Shown here piece by piece: positions 18,174 to 47,761 of a DNA stretch of 64,000 bases (positions within the stretch are counted from its first letter, which is position 1; every line of letters starts with the position of its first letter). The translations under genes were made by a program, and so were the position numbers. The DNA is from Kribbella sp. NBC_00382. Its GTDB lineage: Bacteria > Actinomycetota > Actinomycetes > Propionibacteriales > Kribbellaceae. The notes beneath the pieces were generated by a model, which saw only the letters and a list, made by a program, of their open reading frames with translations, was not told the DNA's origin and did not search any database. The DNA lies in NCBI RefSeq assembly GCF_036067295.1, contig NZ_CP107954.1:4650001-4714000 (forward strand). Reading direction: 5' to 3'.

Positions 18174-18261
18174 GGACAGCACACGGGTGACTCGGACCAG
18201 CCACGCGCACGCCGACCTGCCCACGAGGTCACCGAGATCACCACGGGCGCACGGGGCGCCA

Positions 18262-18425
18262 ATGGGCAGTGGCAGGTCTTCGGACTCGTGGGCTCGCCTG
18301 TTGCCAGACACCTACTGGCCGTCGCTTCCCAAGCCCTCTCGGGCCCAGTGCGTATGACGGCGGTCGTTCCCACTCACCGCTGCGGGGCAGTCCCGGATTC
18401 ACACCGGGTTCCCTCTTACGACGTC
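18262..18425 (-). promoter_or_regulatory. cobalamin riboswitch upstream of metE
   Basis: On the minus strand the leader has the aptamer landmarks in order: GGGAACCCGGTGTGAATCC, GGGACTGCCCCCGCAGCGGTGAG-like core (here CTGCCCCGCAGCGGTGAG), the variable arm, GAGTCCGAAGACCTGCC and the B12-box-like GCCACTG at 18273-18267. The 5' boundary falls on the stop codon of the preceding aminotransferase gene (TAA at 18418-18416). Confidence 0.93.
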
Positions 18426-19735
18426 CTACCTGGCGGGCAGGACGAACCAACTGCAGCCACCACCCTACGTGCTGCGCTGGCCGCCCGCTCGGCGAGTTCC
18501 GCGATCTGAGCGTCGGTGATCACCAGCGGCGGTCCGAACAGGATCAGGTCTCCGTTCACCCCATCGGCACATCCGGTGGAGTGGTAGAGCAGGACGCCAT
18601 CCTCCTTGCCCGCGGCGACGATCCGTTCGGCAAGACGGTCAGCTCGCGGGTACGGCGCGCGAGTCGACCGGTCGGCGACGAACTCAACGGCGCACAGCAG
18701 ACCCAGACCACGGATGTCCCCAACGGCAGGGTGATCGCCGAGCGCTTTCTCCAGGGTTGCCTTCAGCAGGGCGCCCTGGTGCTCAGAGGCTGCGATCAGG
18801 TCGCGATCCTTGAGGACCTTGAGTACTGCGTGCCCAGCCGCCGCGCCGACGACGTGGTGCGAGTAGGTGAAGCCGTGCGTGAACCCGGCGATCTTCTCGT
18901 GGACTTCACCACTGCAAGCAGCGAACCCAAGCGGCCAATAGCCGGACGCTGCACCCTTCGCGGCAACCAGGATGTCCGGCCGCACACCCCAATGCTCACA
19001 GGCGAACCACTTGCCGGTCCGCCCGAACCCGGTCATCACCTCGTCAGCAATCACCAGTACGCCGTACTTCCGGCAGACCGCCGTAATCGCGGGCCAGTAG
19101 TCGTCCGGCGGGACACATGCGCCAAGTGCCGCACCGGAGATCGGCTCGGCGATGAATGCCGCAACTCGCTCGGGGCCCTGAGCAACTATCAGCCGCTCCA
19201 AATGATCCGCGTGTTGTTGCCCACTGAGCGAGGATCGGTATTCATAGGGCGTCGTGGTGTGCACGGCCGATCCCAACCAGGGAAGGTAAGGCGCCTTCAG
19301 TCCAGCCCGGCCCGAGACGTCCAGCGCGCCACGAGTATTGCCGTGGTACGCGCCCTCGCGACCGATCACCACCGACCGGTCCTCACCACGCGCTAGGTGA
19401 TAGGCACGAGCCATCTTGAGTGCGGTCTCGACCGCCTCGCTGCCACCCGACACCGGATAGACGAACGGATCGTCCATCGGCAGCAGCGGCGAGAGCTCCG
19501 CGATGTAGTCCTCCAACGCGGCGGACGTGAAAGCAGTGCCGTGCGCATAGGCCACCAGCTTGGACTGCTTGGCGATGGCGTCCCCGACCTCTTCGACACC
19601 GTGCCCGATGCCGACCACGATCGCACCGCCCGAGCCGTCGAGGTACCGGCGGCCGTCGGTGTCGAAGAGCAGTGCGCCGGTGCCCCGGGCAACAACCGGA
19701 AGGTCGTTGCCCGAGGCCCGAGAGAAGACGGCCAT
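18416..19735 (-). CDS. class-III PLP aminotransferase
   Basis: A 439-residue fold-type I, class III transaminase for an omega-amino acid or polyamine-type substrate; which one cannot be told. Conserved blocks include VSGGSEAVETALKMAR, EGAYHGNTRGAL, IAEPISGAALG, DEVMTGFGRTGKWFA and the Schiff-base Lys in VAAKGAASGYWPLG. It starts 2 bp after the gabT stop and is the third gene of a leftward operon. Its stop codon is also the first bases of the metE riboswitch. Confidence 0.9.
   Translation of the reverse strand: MAVFSRASGNDLPVVARGTGALLFDTDGRRYLDGSGGAIVVGIGHGVEEVGDAIAKQSKLVAYAHGTAFTSAALEDYIAELSPLLPMDDPFVYPVSGGSEAVETALKMARAYHLARGEDRSVVIGREGAYHGNTRGALDVSGRAGLKAPYLPWLGSAVHTTTPYEYRSSLSGQQHADHLERLIVAQGPERVAAFIAEPISGAALGACVPPDDYWPAITAVCRKYGVLVIADEVMTGFGRTGKWFACEHWGVRPDILVAAKGAASGYWPLGFAACSGEVHEKIAGFTHGFTYSHHVVGAAAGHAVLKVLKDRDLIAASEHQGALLKATLEKALGDHPAVGDIRGLGLLCAVEFVADRSTRAPYPRADRLAERIVAAGKEDGVLLYHSTGCADGVNGDLILFGPPLVITDAQIAELAERAASAARRVVAAVGSSCPPGRTS
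18423..18450 (-). promoter_or_regulatory. possible metE/riboswitch promoter inside the upstream gene
   Basis: On the minus strand TTGGTT (18450-18445), a 16-nt spacer and TAGGAC (18428-18423) would start transcription near 18416, the riboswitch 5' edge. The -10 lacks the usual final T, so support is weak; read-through from the operon upstream is the alternative. Confidence 0.3.
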
Positions 19736-32637: not shown

Positions 32638-33499
32638 AGTGCACCCACCGGCGCTGGCCGCGGATCTGGAAGACGGTGATCAGCAGGATGACGGCGAACA
32701 AGATCCAGGACAGTGCTGAGGCTTCACCAGCGCGTCCGTACCGGAAGGTCAGGTCGTAGATCTGCCCGACCACCACCTGGCTGGAGCCTTGCGGGCCGCC
32801 GCCGGTCATCACGTAGACCTGGTCGAAGACCTGGAAACCGTTGATCAGGGAGATCACCACCACGAAGAAGGTCGATGGGGAGAGCAGTGGGAGGGTGACC
32901 CGCCAGAAGCGCTGCCAGGCGCTCGAGCCGTCCACCTTCGCGGCCTCGTAGATGTCCGACGGGATCGACTGCAGGCCGGCGAGCAGGATGACCATCACGA
33001 AACCGAGGTCCTTCCAGGCCGAGCTCAGGATGACGGCCGGCAGGGCCCAGTGCGGGTCGGTCCACCAGCCGGGTTGGGGGAGACCGATCCCGCCGAGTAC
33101 CTGGTTGACCAGGCCGTTGGTCGGATTGAGCAGCCATTTCCAGACCAGCGCGACGACGACCCAGCTGGTGACGACGGGGAGGAAGTACGTGGCCCTCAGG
33201 AACGAACGGCCCTTGAGTTTCTGGTTGAGCGCGAGTGCGAGGCCGAGCCCGCCGGCGTACACGATCGGCAGGTAGCCGGCGACGTAGATGAGCGTGTGCA
33301 GGAAGACCCGGCGGGTGTTCTCGTCGGTCAGCAGGTTCGTGTAGTTGCCGAGACCGACCCACTCCATCGGCGAGATCAGGTTCCACTTGTGCAGGCTCAC
33401 CCACAGGGACGAGACCATCGGCACCAGCGTGAAGACGAAGAGCGGGATCGCGCTCGGGAGCAGGAAGAACAGGACCCAGCCGAGGTTCTTCCGCTTCAT
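32630..33499 (-). CDS. sugar ABC transporter permease, MalF type
   Basis: A 289-residue permease with six transmembrane helices and EAA loop [20 protein letters not shown]. Starts at ATG 33499, overlapping the ROK stop by 4 bp (ATGA). Forms the channel with the MalG-type permease that follows. Confidence 0.95.
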
Positions 33500-34704
33500 C
33501 GCGTTTCCAGCCGGGCGCGAACGAGGCGGCTTTGCTCGCCGCCGTTGCCGGCTGAGTCGAACGGGGAGCTCAGGACCAGCGACGCCGCGCCGCGGGCCCA
33601 CTGGTCCTCCGTCCACGGCTCCACCGCGATCGGTACCGCGCGCCGGGCCGGTAGCAACGATCGCCGGAACGACGGCTCGAACCCGGTCTGCCAGAACTCC
33701 CATCCGTCCACTCCCTCACCCATCAGCACGACGACCTCGGGGTCGACCGTGTGGATCACGCCGGCGAGCGCTCGACCGAGCATGCCGCCGGCTTCCTCGA
33801 AGATCTGTTGTGCCGCGGTGTCACCAGTACTTGCCGCCCGCAACAAAGTGGCGAGCGAGCCACGCGGGCCGATCACCTTGCGCGCGCGGGCTGTGCGAGC
33901 GATCCCGGCCGCGCCGATGTACGCCTCGAGGCAGCCGGTCGAACCGCAGGTGCAGGGCGGCTGCTCGGTGCCGGGCGACCAGACCGGGATGTGCCCGATC
34001 TCGCCGGCGCCACCGTTGGCCCCGCGGTAGATGCCGCCGTCGACGACGATGCCGCAGCCGATGCCACGCCCGATGGTGACGACGAGGTACGACGAATGCG
34101 CGCGCCCGATTCCGTACAGTCGCTCGGCCGCTGCGAGGGTGTTGACGTCGTTGTCGACGAGGACGGGGGTGCCGATGGCCGAGCGTAGTACCGGGCCGAC
34201 GGGAGCGGACTGCCAGCCGAGGGTCGGGGCGTCGACGATGCCGGAGGCCTGCGAATCGACAGCCCCCGGCACGCCGACGCCGACGCCGAGCAGCCGGTCG
34301 TCGAGTTCAGCGACCTGCTTGGCGAGGATCTGGCCGAGGCGCTCGATCGCGTCGGCGGCCGTGGGGTCGTACTCGAGCTCGGTCGACGAGCGGACGGTTC
34401 CGTCCAGCTCGACGGTCACCACTGCGACGTGGTCAGCCGTTACCTTGGCGCCGAGAGCGACCCCTGCGTCGGTGACCAGCCCGAGGAGTCGCGCCGGACG
34501 GCCGCCCTTGGACGGTACCGACTCCAGCTCCTCGATCAGCCCGCGGGCGATCAGGTCCTTGGTCACCTGGGTGACCGTCGCCGGGCTCAACCCGAGCCCC
34601 TTGGCGATCTCGGTCCGCGACGTCGGCCCCTGGGTCCCCAGCAACCCGACGATCCCCGACGGCACCAGATCGCCCCGAGGGATCGGACCCTGTCCACTCG
34701 CCAC
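33496..34704 (-). CDS. ROK family regulator, first gene of the leftward alpha-glucan operon
   Basis: A 402-residue protein: N-terminal winged helix ([20 protein letters not shown], residues about 30-55) and a sugar-kinase-like ROK domain. The zinc cluster shows as [14 protein letters not shown]. It probably represses its own operon until a sugar binds. GTG 34704 has GGGAG upstream. It is translationally coupled to the permeases. AT-rich operators lie directly upstream. Confidence 0.93.
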
Positions 34705-34779: not shown

Positions 34780-34879
34780 GTCCCGCTCGACAGGAGGTAC
34801 TCGACTGTTCGCCGTGGGTAGTCGGCCGGCTGAGCGTGGCGACCGCCGCCGACGGCGGGTACCTCCTGTCGAGCGGGAC
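34780..34879. mobile_element. 100-bp element with 21-bp terminal inverted repeats, copy 1
   Basis: Ends GTCCCGCTCGACAGGAGG... and its exact complement form perfect 21-bp inverted repeats (34780-34800, 34859-34879) around 58 bp. An equal-length copy lies at 46644-46743; in both, TGAGCGTGG sits at the same offset, 51 bp from the left end, while most of the rest of the interior differs. It looks like a MITE-type or structured repeat. It lies between the two divergent ROK operons. No target duplication is evident. Confidence 0.75.
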
Positions 34880-34945: not shown

Positions 34946-36168
34946 TGGTGGGGCGGGTGCAGCCGGTTCGGGTGGGGAGCAAGGAGCTGATCCGGGAGAT
35001 CAACTCGTCGCTGGTGCTGGGGGAGCTGCGCGGCGGGCTGGTGTCGCGGACGGAGCTGGCCAAGCGGACCGGGTTGAGCCTGCCGACCGTCTCCGAGATC
35101 GTGGCGGAGCTGATCGGCTCCGGGGTGATCGAGGAGCGCGAGACGGCGTCGTCCGGGGGTGGGCGGCGGCCCGTGCTGCTCGGGCTGAAGCCTGACGCTG
35201 GGTATGTGATCGGCATCAAGGTCACCGAGACCCGCGTGATCGCCGTACTCACCGACCTCAACGCCGGGATCGTGGAGCGGGCGACCGCGAGCCTGGGTGA
35301 CGACGACGTCGCGACTGTCGTGCGGGCGATCGCGGGGGTGGTCAAGAAGCTCCGCGCGGCGGCGTCTCGCCATTCGGGTGGTGGGGCGCGGCCGAGCCCC
35401 GTGTACGGCGTTGGTGTCGGGCTCGCTGGTGTGATTGACCGGGCCAGCGGGGTGGTTCGGCATGCGACGTACGCCGATTGGCGCGATGTCGACCTGGCTG
35501 GGTTGCTGACCAAGCGCACCGGGTTGCCCGTGGTGGTGGACAACGATGTGAACACGTTGGTCGCCAATGAGCAGTGGTTCGGGGCCGGGCGGGGTGTCTC
35601 CGACGTGGCTGTGGTCAGCATCGGGCGTGGTGTCGGGCTCGGTATGGTGCTCGACGGCCGGCTGTACCGCGGTGCCGGGGGCGGCGCGGGCGAGTTCGGA
35701 CATACGAAGGTCGTTGCCGACGGCCCGCTTTGTGACTGTGGCGGCCGCGGCTGCCTGGAAGCTCTGATCGGTGAGCCCGCCATCCTCACCGCGACCGGCA
35801 GCACCACCATTGAGCAGGCTGTCGCCGCCGCCCGAGGTGGCGATCAAACCGCTGTCGATGTCTTCGATCAAGTCGGCCGCACCCTGGGAACGGCCGTCGG
35901 CAATCTCGTCAACCTGCTGAATCCCAAGCTGATCGTGCTCGCCGGCGAGGGTACGCGGGCGAGCAATCTGTTCCTTCCCGGCTTCGAGGAAGCCTTGCAA
36001 CTAGCTGTGTTCGACGGACTCCAGCGCGAGCTGGACGTGGTCGTCGACGACTGGGACGACGAAGCCTGGGCGCAAGGCGCCGCGGGCCTTTTCCTGGGCG
36101 AACTCTTCCAGCCCAACCTCCGCCCCGACGAGGCCGACCGCCCGTCCCTCACCAAACGTTCCGCCTGA
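34945..36168 (+). CDS. ROK family regulator, first gene of the rightward operon
   Basis: A regulator of about 407 residues: winged helix (SRTELAKRTGLSLPTVSEIV) and ROK domain with zinc cluster CDCGGRGCLEALIG and [10 protein letters not shown]. The start is uncertain: GTG at 34945, 34948 or 34957 all lie downstream of the predicted transcription start; an in-frame TTG at 34915 lies upstream of it. Gap to the secreted GH31 is 28 bp. Two different ROK proteins flank one gap, so cross-regulation is likely. Confidence 0.9.
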   Translation: MVGRVQPVRVGSKELIREINSSLVLGELRGGLVSRTELAKRTGLSLPTVSEIVAELIGSGVIEERETASSGGGRRPVLLGLKPDAGYVIGIKVTETRVIAVLTDLNAGIVERATASLGDDDVATVVRAIAGVVKKLRAAASRHSGGGARPSPVYGVGVGLAGVIDRASGVVRHATYADWRDVDLAGLLTKRTGLPVVVDNDVNTLVANEQWFGAGRGVSDVAVVSIGRGVGLGMVLDGRLYRGAGGGAGEFGHTKVVADGPLCDCGGRGCLEALIGEPAILTATGSTTIEQAVAAARGGDQTAVDVFDQVGRTLGTAVGNLVNLLNPKLIVLAGEGTRASNLFLPGFEEALQLAVFDGLQRELDVVVDDWDDEAWAQGAAGLFLGELFQPNLRPDEADRPSLTKRSA

Positions 36169-45630: not shown

Positions 45631-45689
45631 TTGCAGAGTTGCACGTTGTTGCAATGACCCGCTTCCATGAGAGCTGCTCATGGAAGCGG
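45631..45689. promoter_or_regulatory. LysR-type operators between oxidoreductase and lysR
   Basis: CCGCTTCCATGA (45659-45670) and its exact complement (45678-45689), 7 bp apart, form a perfect 12-bp inverted repeat. A second site, TTGCA-N14-TGCAA (45631-45654), lies next to it. Two adjacent dyads in a divergent gap fit recognition and activation sites. Confidence 0.65.
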
Positions 45690-45702
45690 CTACGCTGGTT
45701 TC

Positions 45703-46575
45703 GTGGACCTCACCGCCGCCGAACTGCGCATTCTCGACGCTGTCGAACGGGGTGGCAGCTTCTCGGCCGCGGCGTCGACATTGGGGCTGACTCAGTCGGC
45801 TGTCTCGCATTCGGTGCGGATGACCGAACGCAAGATCGGTACCGTCCTCTTCGACCGCGGCCGGCACGGCGCTCGCCCGACACCGGCCGGCGAACGCGCG
45901 ATCCTGCATGGCCGTGGCGTGCTCCGCTTGATGGACGTACTCCGCGCTGACGCGCTCGCGGCCTCTGGTGGTTCGCTCGACACCCGCTTGCGGATCGCCG
46001 CCTTCCGCAGCGCGGCCGCGCAACTGCTCCCACCGGCGCTGACCCGGTTGACGGCTCGGCATCCGCAACTCTCGTACGACGTATCGATCGTGCGGGATGT
46101 CGGCGGTGGTACGGCGACCGAGGTGGTCGAGGGCCGCGCCGACCTAGCGATCGTGAACCTCCCGCACCGGCTCCCCGCATCGGCCGGCCTGGTCGGCGGC
46201 GAACTACTCGACGAGCCGTATGTACTGATCCACCCGGCTCGTTGCTCGGACCCCCGATCTCTCCCACTGATCGACTGGACCGAGAACTGCTCGACCGAGA
46301 CGCGGCAGTGGTTCCGCACCCAGGATTGGTTGCCTCCAGCCACCATCAACGTTGCCGACGATACCGTCCTGCTCTCGATGGTCGCCCACGGCCTCGGCAT
46401 GGCCGTCGTCCCTCGGACCACTGCCGCCGACCGTGCCGCCGACGTCGCACTCGAGGACCTAGGCCCAACCACCCCTCGCCGGACGATCGGCTACCTCACC
46501 ACCCCAGCCCTATCCCGCAGCACAGCCCTCCGCGAACTGGTCGCCGAGCTTCGAGCCACCCGCCCAACCAACTGA
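45703..46575 (+). CDS. LysR family transcriptional regulator
   Basis: A 290-residue LysR protein with N-terminal winged helix (LRILDAVERGGSFSAAAS, LTQSAVSHSVRMTERKIG) and a periplasmic-binding-like effector domain. GTG 45703 (VDLTAAELRIL) was chosen because TACGCT (45691-45696) lies 6 nt before it, a leaderless arrangement; an ATG at 45667 lies inside the operator. The stop codon is the first part of an ACTG repeat. Confidence 0.9.
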   Translation: MDLTAAELRILDAVERGGSFSAAASTLGLTQSAVSHSVRMTERKIGTVLFDRGRHGARPTPAGERAILHGRGVLRLMDVLRADALAASGGSLDTRLRIAAFRSAAAQLLPPALTRLTARHPQLSYDVSIVRDVGGGTATEVVEGRADLAIVNLPHRLPASAGLVGGELLDEPYVLIHPARCSDPRSLPLIDWTENCSTETRQWFRTQDWLPPATINVADDTVLLSMVAHGLGMAVVPRTTAADRAADVALEDLGPTTPRRTIGYLTTPALSRSTALRELVAELRATRPTN

Positions 46576-46602
46576 CTGACTGACTGACTGACTGACTGAC
46601 TG
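46571..46602. repeat. (ACTG)8 tetranucleotide microsatellite at the lysR stop codon
   Basis: Eight perfect ACTG units overlap the LysR TGA (46573-46575). Because the stop lies in the first unit, slippage does not change the protein. Such a long perfect tetranucleotide run is uncommon in GC-rich actinobacterial DNA. Confidence 0.95.
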
Positions 46603-46643: not shown

Positions 46644-46743
46644 GTACCGCTCGACAGGAGGTAGTGGTCATCCCGCGGCCGACCGCGGCCGCCGTGAGCG
46701 TGGTGGTCGGCGGATCGGTCGACTACCTCCTGTCGAGCGGGAC
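46644..46743. mobile_element. 100-bp element with terminal inverted repeats, copy 2
   Basis: Same length and end sequences as 34780-34879, with one mismatch between its 21-bp ends (46644-46664, 46723-46743). The interior can form GCCGACC/GGTCGGC, different from copy 1, around the shared TGAGCGTGG. The right end is translated: it encodes the last six residues (VPLDRR) and TAG stop of the epimerase gene on the minus strand. Confidence 0.75.
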
Positions 46744-47709
46744 GGTGTCGACCGTGAGCTTGCCGTTGTCGATGAGCCAGGTGAGGGCGTCGAGGGTTGC
46801 GGCGAGAGCGGAGTACGAGGGGCGGAAGCCGAGGAGTCTGTTGGCCTTCTCCATCGAGCAATGCGGGCTGTGGGTGATGTGGTCGAGGGTGATGGCGGCA
46901 TCGCGGTCCGAGACCGTCTTGCGCCACTCTTCCCATGGCAGGAAGGACAGCCGTGGCTCCTGGCCGAACCAGCGAGCCACCCCCTCGGCGTACCCGCGCA
47001 GCGTCATCGCGCCGGCGGCGACGGCATGGAAGCTCTCGCCGATCGCGACCGACCGATTGGCCAGCGCGGCGAGGAAGACGCCGGCGACGTCGGCCGCGTG
47101 CACGTGCTGCACCGTCTCCAGGCCGAGGTTCGGAAGTACCAGTTCGTTGCCGTTAGCAAGAGTCTCGAAGACGCCGAGGTCGAGGTGCCCGGCCGGATTG
47201 ATCGGCGCCCACCCCGGCCCGGTGATGTGCCCAGGCCGGATCACGGTCGCGGGCAACCCGTCGGTGCCGAGCAGTCCGTCGCCGCCGAGCAGGTAACGCT
47301 CGATCGCGGCCTTGGCGATCCCGTACTCGCCGAACGGGACCGTCACCGCCTCTTCCGGCGTCGGTACGAGCGCACTCGGGCCGTGCACCCAGATGGTCCC
47401 GCAGTGCAACAGATGCCGCACCTGACCCCGCAGCGCCTCACCCAACTGCCGGGCACTCTCCTCGGTGAAGCAGATCAGATCGATCACCACGTCAGCACCG
47501 AGCGCGCGAACCCGCTCCCCGAAGGTCCCGGCGGCGTCCTCCGCATCCCGATCGACCTGAACGCGCTCGACCCGATTCCAGGCCGAGCTTGCCCGGTACG
47601 GCGTACGCTCGCCGCGGCTGAGCACGACGACCTGATGCCCCAGTTGCACCAACTCCGGGACCAGGTAGCTGCCGATGTGCCCGGTACCTCCGATGACCGC
47701 GATTCGCAT
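46723..47709 (-). CDS. NAD-dependent epimerase/dehydratase family protein
   Basis: A 328-residue extended short-chain dehydrogenase beginning MRIAVIGGTGHIGSYLVPEL, the dinucleotide motif. A YGIAKAAIERYLL stretch holds the Tyr-x3-Lys catalytic pair. Substrate, probably a nucleotide sugar or small sugar derivative, is unknown. The last codons come from the inverted end of the 100-bp element, so the original C-terminus may have been replaced. ATG 47709 is preferred to one at 47718. Confidence 0.85.
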   Translation of the reverse strand: MRIAVIGGTGHIGSYLVPELVQLGHQVVVLSRGERTPYRASSAWNRVERVQVDRDAEDAAGTFGERVRALGADVVIDLICFTEESARQLGEALRGQVRHLLHCGTIWVHGPSALVPTPEEAVTVPFGEYGIAKAAIERYLLGGDGLLGTDGLPATVIRPGHITGPGWAPINPAGHLDLGVFETLANGNELVLPNLGLETVQHVHAADVAGVFLAALANRSVAIGESFHAVAAGAMTLRGYAEGVARWFGQEPRLSFLPWEEWRKTVSDRDAAITLDHITHSPHCSMEKANRLLGFRPSYSALAATLDALTWLIDNGKLTVDTVPLDRR

Positions 47710-47761
47710 ACCGTCCACCCTAGGCGGCGGCGCCGGGTGGGGCGCGAACTATGGTGGCGGG

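Follow-up and report, generated by a model that had tools for sequence, protein, structure and literature searches.

Dispersed 100-bp palindromes in Kribbella and the AbiEi-nuclease genes that they bracket, a candidate two-part mobile system

The window analysed here, a stretch of 64,000 nucleotides from Kribbella sp. NBC_00382, contains two elements of equal length whose ends are conserved and inverted and whose inner bases differ. What kind of element keeps its ends and its length and lets the rest vary? The first-pass annotation had suggested selection on a folded form, in either a MITE moved in trans by a transposase or a structured RNA or DNA element. Our data point to a variant of the MITE reading. 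We consider it rather likely that the 100-bp element, which carries no gene, is the small half of a mobile system made of two parts, in which the partner is a gene for an AbiEi-nuclease fusion protein. The features of the window are as follows.

34780–34879, no strand: copy 1, 100-bp palindromic element between divergent ROK-family regulator genes
34780–34800, plus strand: left arm of copy 1, 21 bp, perfectly inverted to the right arm
34859–34879, minus strand: right arm of copy 1
34831–34839, plus strand: TGAGCGTGG motif of copy 1, element positions 52–60
33496–34704, minus strand: ROK-family regulator gene to the left of copy 1, context only
34948–36168, plus strand: ROK-family regulator gene to the right of copy 1, context only (start assumed; reading frame listed from 34915)
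46644–46743, no strand: copy 2, 100-bp palindromic element between LysR-family and epimerase genes, convergent
46644–46665, plus strand: left arm of copy 2, one mismatch against the right arm
46722–46743, minus strand: right arm of copy 2, in which AGGAGGTAG gives the TAG stop of the epimerase reading frame 46723–47718
46695–46703, plus strand: TGAGCGTGG motif of copy 2, element positions 52–60
45667–46575, plus strand: LysR-family regulator gene to the left of copy 2, context only
46723–47718, minus strand: NAD-dependent epimerase/dehydratase gene to the right of copy 2, last codons inside the element

Copies, arms and interiors

Both window copies are exactly 100 bp long, as had been reported. 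The ends of copy 1 form a perfect 21-bp inversion (22 bp with the C/G just outside), those of copy 2 are near-identical to them with arms that differ at one of 22 bp (base 3), and the TGAGCGTGG motif sits at the same offset in both. Four occurrences of the arm core lie in the window, where 0.5 would be expected, and 100 shuffles never gave as many. The right arm of copy 2 supplies the stop codon and C-terminal residues of the epimerase gene (46723–46743), AGGAGGTAG reading -RR-stop, and an arm at L145:5036–5056 does the same for its neighbour gene. Since arms carry stop codons and C-terminal residues, insertion of an element can trim or extend proteins. In the listed relatives, matches to the epimerase gene start at 46749 or beyond, outside copy 2. 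Just before copy 2, the end of the LysR-family gene carries a CTGA tandem repeat of about seven units (~46573–46602).

The window belongs to a genome of 8.49 Mb in one contig (G000), and this genome contains further copies. A scan with 16 arm bases and at most two mismatches gave 55 matches, against 15 for the reversed pattern. The surroundings of these matches, together with one exact-pattern match, yielded at least 26 copies, which is a lower bound. Twenty of them are 100 bp long, two are 99 bp, and the others measure 96, 101, 102 and 103 bp. The element consists of inverted arms of ~22 bp (GTCCCGCTCGACAGGAGGTAGT) around a varying spacer, with TGAGCGTGG at positions 52–60 in most copies. Among the 20 copies of exactly 100 bp, pairwise identity is 90% in the arms and 43% in the interiors, where composition alone predicts 31%; part of the interior excess is the motif at 52–60, which served to orient the copies. 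According to a rough gene prediction the copies are mostly intergenic, and three overlap a predicted gene end. Of the four copies with lengths other than 99 or 100 bp, three form a variant subtype of 101–103 bp (C1 positions 65662, 3334195 and 7759276) with CGACAGGTAGT as left arm. They resemble a decayed palindrome found beside a broken gene of G000, which is described below, and GTGCACTA-bearing variants also occur among the AACGGGTAGT elements of G032. The copy at C1:8120093 has a different tip, perfectly compensated on the other side (GTGCACGCCGACAGG / CCTGTCGGCGTGCAC).

Elements with exact arms are present in 13 of 38 genomes of the genus, G000 included, and the reversed control pattern in none. 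Scanning a species-level genome collection with a shorter core, ACAGGAGGTA, which is thereby fixed by the search itself, returned 70 loci, 64 of them in Kribbella. The six in Verrucomicrobia and Planctomycetes were set aside because they look like a different, purine-rich repeat; the inverted repeats at L087, L109, L112, L136, L137 and L139 start with ACAGGAGGTAACGGAG, have T/A-rich flanks and probably form a separate repeat family. The outer tip of the arm is species-specific and mostly still inverted (CTAACG/CGTTAG, CCGAAGG/CCTTCGG and others). No relative was found in the viral contigs searched. In G007, seven near-identical copies of a larger repeat (L263–L269) with the ends GCCTGTTG...CAACAGGC, some of them varied, each hold one palindrome, and the larger repeat is perhaps a second, MITE-like element that has picked up a palindrome. 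Recent bursts were dropped as proof of self-mobility, since this larger repeat encloses the seven copies of G007 and may have carried them along.

The first-pass annotation had further suggested that the inner bases, different as they are, can still pair, and that a folded form with variable pairing stems is under selection. The comparison of copies does not bear this out. Mirror pairing at positions 25–50 is not above expectation, with 140 of 520 in the 20 G000 copies (172 expected) and 192 of 572 in 22 copies from other genomes (204 expected). The folding energy of the interior is at shuffle level (mean z −0.21 for 26 G000 copies and −0.17 for 26 others; +1.0 and −0.9 for the two window copies), and we therefore rejected a folded interior with compensatory changes. 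The whole element folds strongly, with z from −6.1 to −7.4 and a hairpin on both strands, and this fold must come from the arms. Only the arms pair, and the interior varies at nearly fixed length. A structured RNA or a bidirectional terminator, for which the hairpin on both strands would be suitable, is thus a very improbable reading: Rfam has no match at the elements, its sole match in the window being a cobalamin riboswitch elsewhere (18254–18467, minus strand, 97.6 bits), the interior is unstructured relative to shuffles, the arm sequence is conserved across copies beyond what a terminator needs, and presence varies between relatives.

Sites shared between genomes give a second view of the interior. 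In pairs with flanks at least 80, 75 or 70% identical (5, 11 and 16 pairs), interior identity is 0.81, 0.70 and 0.66 against 0.90, 0.85 and 0.82 in the flanks, with the qualification that selecting by flank identity raises the flank figure and that pairs share loci. Interiors less alike than their flanks suggest that the interior can change freely. Those arm positions that the search left open stand at about flank level in the same pairs (0.91, 0.84 and 0.79). Nine hand-picked pairs had suggested that arms are more conserved than flanks at shared sites, which a rule-based recount did not support. In one gene-flanking palindrome (L089/L141), 38 of 56 interior positions are identical against 97 of 101 and 91 of 100 in the adjacent flanks; this spacer changes faster than its surroundings.

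The AbiEi-nuclease gene and its palindromes

Paired elements separated by ~1 kb flank a single gene in K. rubisoli, K. capetownensis and K. kalugense. Its product of ~285 aa joins an AbiEi-type N-terminal region to a Vsr/MTES_1575/DUF559-type PD-(D/E)XK nuclease domain. In K. rubisoli it has 288 aa, with matches to AbiEi_4 (E 1.4e-8), the MTES_1575 REase (6e-7, under cut-off) and DUF559 (9.5e-5, over cut-off). PADLOC reports AbiEi in three of three proteins, at residues 12–158 in the K. rubisoli product. In a set of five proteins, Pfam AbiEi_4 is over cut-off in L145 and L179, under it in L178 and not reported for L172 and L343; DUF559 is over cut-off in L145, L172, L179 and L343 and under it in L178; MTES_1575 is matched in all five, always under cut-off. 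Three acidic positions are conserved in 44 intact proteins, D215 in all 44, E226 in 43 (D in the other) and E or D at 228 in all 44, and some of these residues may be catalytic. Six of 50 proteins had been dropped from this set, which also served the Mantel test below with 35 two-flank loci, for stops in the match span or insufficient length. A sequence search of the PDB gave chance-level matches only (best E 0.17), and the structure model of the protein is poor (mean pLDDT 45.5). The gene has matches in all 38 genomes of the genus, only distant ones in a few (e.g. G012), and in 110 of 117 genomes sampled from the order, where many matches are distant and perhaps not the same fusion.

A palindrome lies just before the start, at the stop codon or at both in 47 of 50 Kribbella gene loci (30 returned by a homologue search and 20 chosen from its list, four in G000). 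Both sides are occupied at 38 loci, the upstream side only at five and the downstream side only at four; the three loci without a palindrome are L177 (the broken G000 gene), L180 (a 29% relative) and L192. The background of such inverted repeats is 0.126 per kb in 294 kb of genus DNA, real elements included, or ~0.03 per 225-bp band on each side. The upstream palindrome typically ends 50–60 bp before the gene match, and the downstream one overlaps or closely trails the gene end; in K. rubisoli (L145) the arm itself encodes the C-terminus and TAG stop of the gene. The arrangement is also seen in other genera of the order. At 20 loci chosen from the list (18 closer homologues and two more distant) and scanned with looser settings, at least one palindrome lies beside the gene in 12 and both sides are occupied in four; the near-gene bands hold 16 palindromes in 5.4 kb, the remaining DNA 16 in 52.7 kb.

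The arms are specific to the gene that they enclose. Upstream and downstream arms of one gene are alike at 0.887, arms of different genes at 0.608 (38 loci), and arm distance follows protein distance with a Mantel r of 0.72 (p 0.001, n = 35, not phylogeny-corrected). The partial correlation with the arms is 0.42–0.44 for the N-terminal and middle parts of the protein given the C-terminal part, and 0.26 for the C-terminal part given the N-terminal one. Dispersed copies show the same agreement. The tips of 53 of them match the gene arms of their own genome at 6.83 of 8 positions, against 5.64 under permuted genome labels (p 0.0005, not phylogeny-corrected); the test left out six gene-flanking loci, six loci outside Kribbella, and L083, L094, L095, L121 and L133, for whose genomes there were no examined gene arms. 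The match is broken in two of nine genomes, G024 (2.67 with its own arms and 6.33 with others) and G016 (5.00 and 4.91).

Particular arm types lead to a similar picture. Elements of the AACGGGTAGT type occur in eight of the nine genomes in which a gene with these arms was examined and in five of the other 29 (Fisher p 0.0002, not phylogeny-corrected), with arm types assigned by eye and part of each genome's homologues read. Six of the eight genome counts include one gene-flanking palindrome, and all eight genomes have at least one dispersed copy. The five genomes with AACGGGTAGT elements and no examined gene of that type include G013, with seven such elements and two of its ten homologues read. 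Elements of the CACTCACAAAG type are confined to two of the 38 genomes, G000 and G007, and in both the gene lies between two of them; solo copies with the exact pattern number four in G007 and none in G000. At the murB locus, a gene position common to many genomes, some genomes have ACAGGAGGTAGT arms and others AACGGGTAGT arms, so that the arms on both sides of the gene have changed in concert.

G000 itself has two intact AbiEi-nuclease genes, with arms other than GTCCCGCTCGACAGG, and a broken gene of the right clade beside murB, accompanied by a decayed palindrome. No intact gene with GTCCCGCTCGACAGG arms was found at the six places read, three of the eight counted matches lying elsewhere, and the remaining weak gene matches have no palindrome alongside. 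The GTCCCGCTCGACAGG copies of G000 therefore look orphaned, with no intact partner among the places read. Their arms are clean despite the missing partner, which may mean that the partner was lost recently, that another gene serves the copies, or that selection acts on the arms.

Palindromes beside a gene of this kind could also be operators, and this is the main rival of the mobile reading. PMC7319586 describes AbiEi antitoxins as binding to inverted repeats within their own promoters. The AbiEi-nuclease might then be a regulator or defence protein, the gene-side palindromes its autoregulatory operators, the dispersed copies regulon sites or decoys, and their change of position a turnover of binding sites. 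One palindrome just upstream of the gene, arms kept in G000 while interiors differ, and covariation of arms with protein would all fit. An operator, however, does not need the second palindrome at the stop codon, and the dispersed copies of G000 stand in every gene orientation, convergent included (by the rough prediction, which left one or both neighbours of 11 of the 26 unassigned). At shared sites, moreover, the free arm positions are about as conserved as the flanks and not more so (0.91 vs 0.90, 0.84 vs 0.85, 0.79 vs 0.82 in 5, 11 and 16 pairs). We consider the operator reading unlikely, though it is the most credible of the alternatives, and the comparison of relatives also bears on it.

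Presence and absence between relatives

Sites that are occupied in G000 are empty in relatives. Copy 1 is absent from G023, where 43 bp, not 143, separate the aligned flanks and the intergenic region is 100 bp shorter. The same site is occupied in G028, G007 and G029, with different arms, and persistence at sites common to several species implies that many copies are old. Copy 2725095 is absent in all 20 genomes with one alignment across its site; the other 17 relatives give no one-piece alignment, and in several of them the flanks lie hundreds of bases apart. Copy 2748795 is absent in G028, G029 and G018, and the same gap in G007 holds an element with G007's own arms. Site 2730425 is occupied in G029, by an element with that genome's own arm type, and shows none in G028 and G007. 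Site 8228898 likewise holds an own-type element in G029; the scan accepted no palindrome there in G007, G037, G031, G014 and G025, and only unrelated inverted repeats are found in G028 and G018. The murB locus of G011 lacks the whole palindrome-gene-palindrome unit, which may have been lost there instead of never having been present. The element moves or has moved. In addition, ~100 bp present or absent between aligned flanks is the outcome expected of insertion, which counts against the operator reading.

No target-site duplication was found around the 26 copies, the best direct match being 5 of 8, and the insertions may be too old to retain one. An apparent excess in a few of 80 shift and length settings failed copy by copy. 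Copy 1 lies between CTGTCAA and TTGACAG, and a palindromic target preference was rejected as well, as there is no such excess at 26 G000 sites, 26 other sites and 65 further sites.

MITEs are short, gene-less, dispersed and polymorphic elements with inverted ends, and the Kribbella element is all of these. The idea of a MITE-like element moved in trans thus holds in part. Copies are numerous, their ends and length are conserved, relatives differ in which sites are occupied, and there is a gene whose ends match, but that gene is an AbiEi-nuclease fusion and not a known transposase, and target-site duplication is lacking. An ordinary MITE of a conventional (e.g. DDE) transposon, with the AbiEi-nuclease gene as passenger or favoured neighbour, would share the inverted ends, small fixed size, dispersal and presence/absence differences. 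It would also be expected to leave target-site duplications, and no parent transposon with the same ends was found in G000. Among the G000 arm matches with at most two mismatches no transposase-sized copy stands out; neighbouring matches are 72–78 bp apart, start to start, and the only other spacings below 6 kb are 127, 494 and 5254 bp. The Kribbella element further departs from MITEs in an interior that is free in sequence and nearly fixed in length, and its arms differ by gene and follow the nuclease gene. We therefore regard a conventional MITE as improbable.

A possible mechanism and its relation to known systems

Taken with the pairing of arms and genes and the presence/absence differences, the architecture of the protein suggests that these palindromes are non-autonomous elements, which a dedicated AbiEi-nuclease recognises and probably moves. 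As a rule, a palindrome stands on either side of the gene. In the mechanism we propose, the AbiEi part of each protein would read the arms of its own palindromes, as AbiEi proteins bind inverted repeats, and the nuclease domain would cut at the arms, or at a hairpin or cruciform formed by them. Repair or replication could then copy the palindrome to a new intergenic site, and the whole palindrome-gene-palindrome unit might be copied or moved too, more rarely. The interior would act as a spacer held to length, with one conserved motif. Binding, cleavage and the choice of the AbiEi-nuclease rather than another protein as the mover are what we infer from these patterns.

One close parallel is the REPIN-RAYT system, in which REP doublets occur with a REP-associated tyrosine transposase (PMC3116915) and RAYT genes are flanked by REPs (PMC3733652). 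Both systems have dispersed extragenic inverted doublets able to form one hairpin and tied to nearby genes of one family. The Kribbella protein, however, combines AbiEi with a Vsr/DUF559-type nuclease in place of an HUH/Y1 transposase, and its element has long arms and no evident REP unit of GTAG plus short hairpin, although GTAG is in most arms. Could a RAYT have been missed? An inverted doublet of ~100 bp that folds over its entire length and mostly has GTAG in its arms would suit a REPIN, but the Y1_Tnp profile (PF01797) matches one of 38 genomes of the genus and not G000, while it matches five of 14 control genomes, E. coli included, and the interiors fold no better than shuffles, so that no REP-like short hairpin is evident. 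With the defining enzyme absent from 37 of 38 genomes, membership in REPIN-RAYT was rejected, and a REPIN mobilised by an overlooked RAYT is highly improbable.

TIRtrons are tyrosine transposase genes with long terminal inverted repeats on both sides, and some of these repeats belong to repeat families (PMC3733652). As in Kribbella, inverted repeats enclose a gene and are also found dispersed as a family. TIRtrons differ in their enzyme, a tyrosine transposase instead of a nuclease fusion, and in that each Kribbella flank is a complete ~100-bp palindrome. The main text of PMC3733652 does not contain the words Kribbella, Actinobacteria or Streptomyces. The Kribbella system works like REPIN-RAYT or TIRtrons and is not a member of either, since the enzyme is absent.

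On the protein side, the AbiE type IV toxin-antitoxin system has an AbiEi that binds inverted repeats at its own promoter (PMC7319586), and the Kribbella protein has an AbiEi-like region at residues ~12–160. Unlike in AbiE, this region is fused to a nuclease domain, the palindromes stand on both sides of the gene and are dispersed as well, and no gene for an AbiEii nucleotidyltransferase toxin adjoins at the murB locus, the one examined, where the neighbours encode MurB and a solute-binding protein. The C-terminal domain, with its conserved acidic residues, resembles the MTES_1575/Vsr-family REase and DUF559. The part of PMC3710099 that we drew on places the MTES_1575 domain in a large HEPN-linked protein and does not mention palindromic elements. 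In the open-licence literature of PubMed Central we found no link of AbiEi, DUF559 or MTES_1575 genes to palindromic or mobile elements and no description of Kribbella repeats.

Whether these elements form a new class of mobile DNA in bacteria seems about evenly balanced. The mobilising enzyme of the ~100-bp palindromes would in that case be a Vsr-like nuclease fused to an AbiEi-type DNA-binding antitoxin, and binding specificity and arms would evolve in lockstep. If the pairing of arms and genes means mobilisation, it would be a second, independent invention of the REPIN-RAYT lifestyle, with different chemistry and in Actinobacteria, and the AbiEi-nuclease fusions, whose relatives are widespread in the order, would gain a function. 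The natural pairs of protein and arms, such as ACAGGAGGTAGT and AACGGGTAGT at the murB locus, would also provide material for working out how AbiEi-type regions read DNA. If our reading is true, a domain named for toxin-antitoxin systems and phage defence also serves selfish or domesticated elements.
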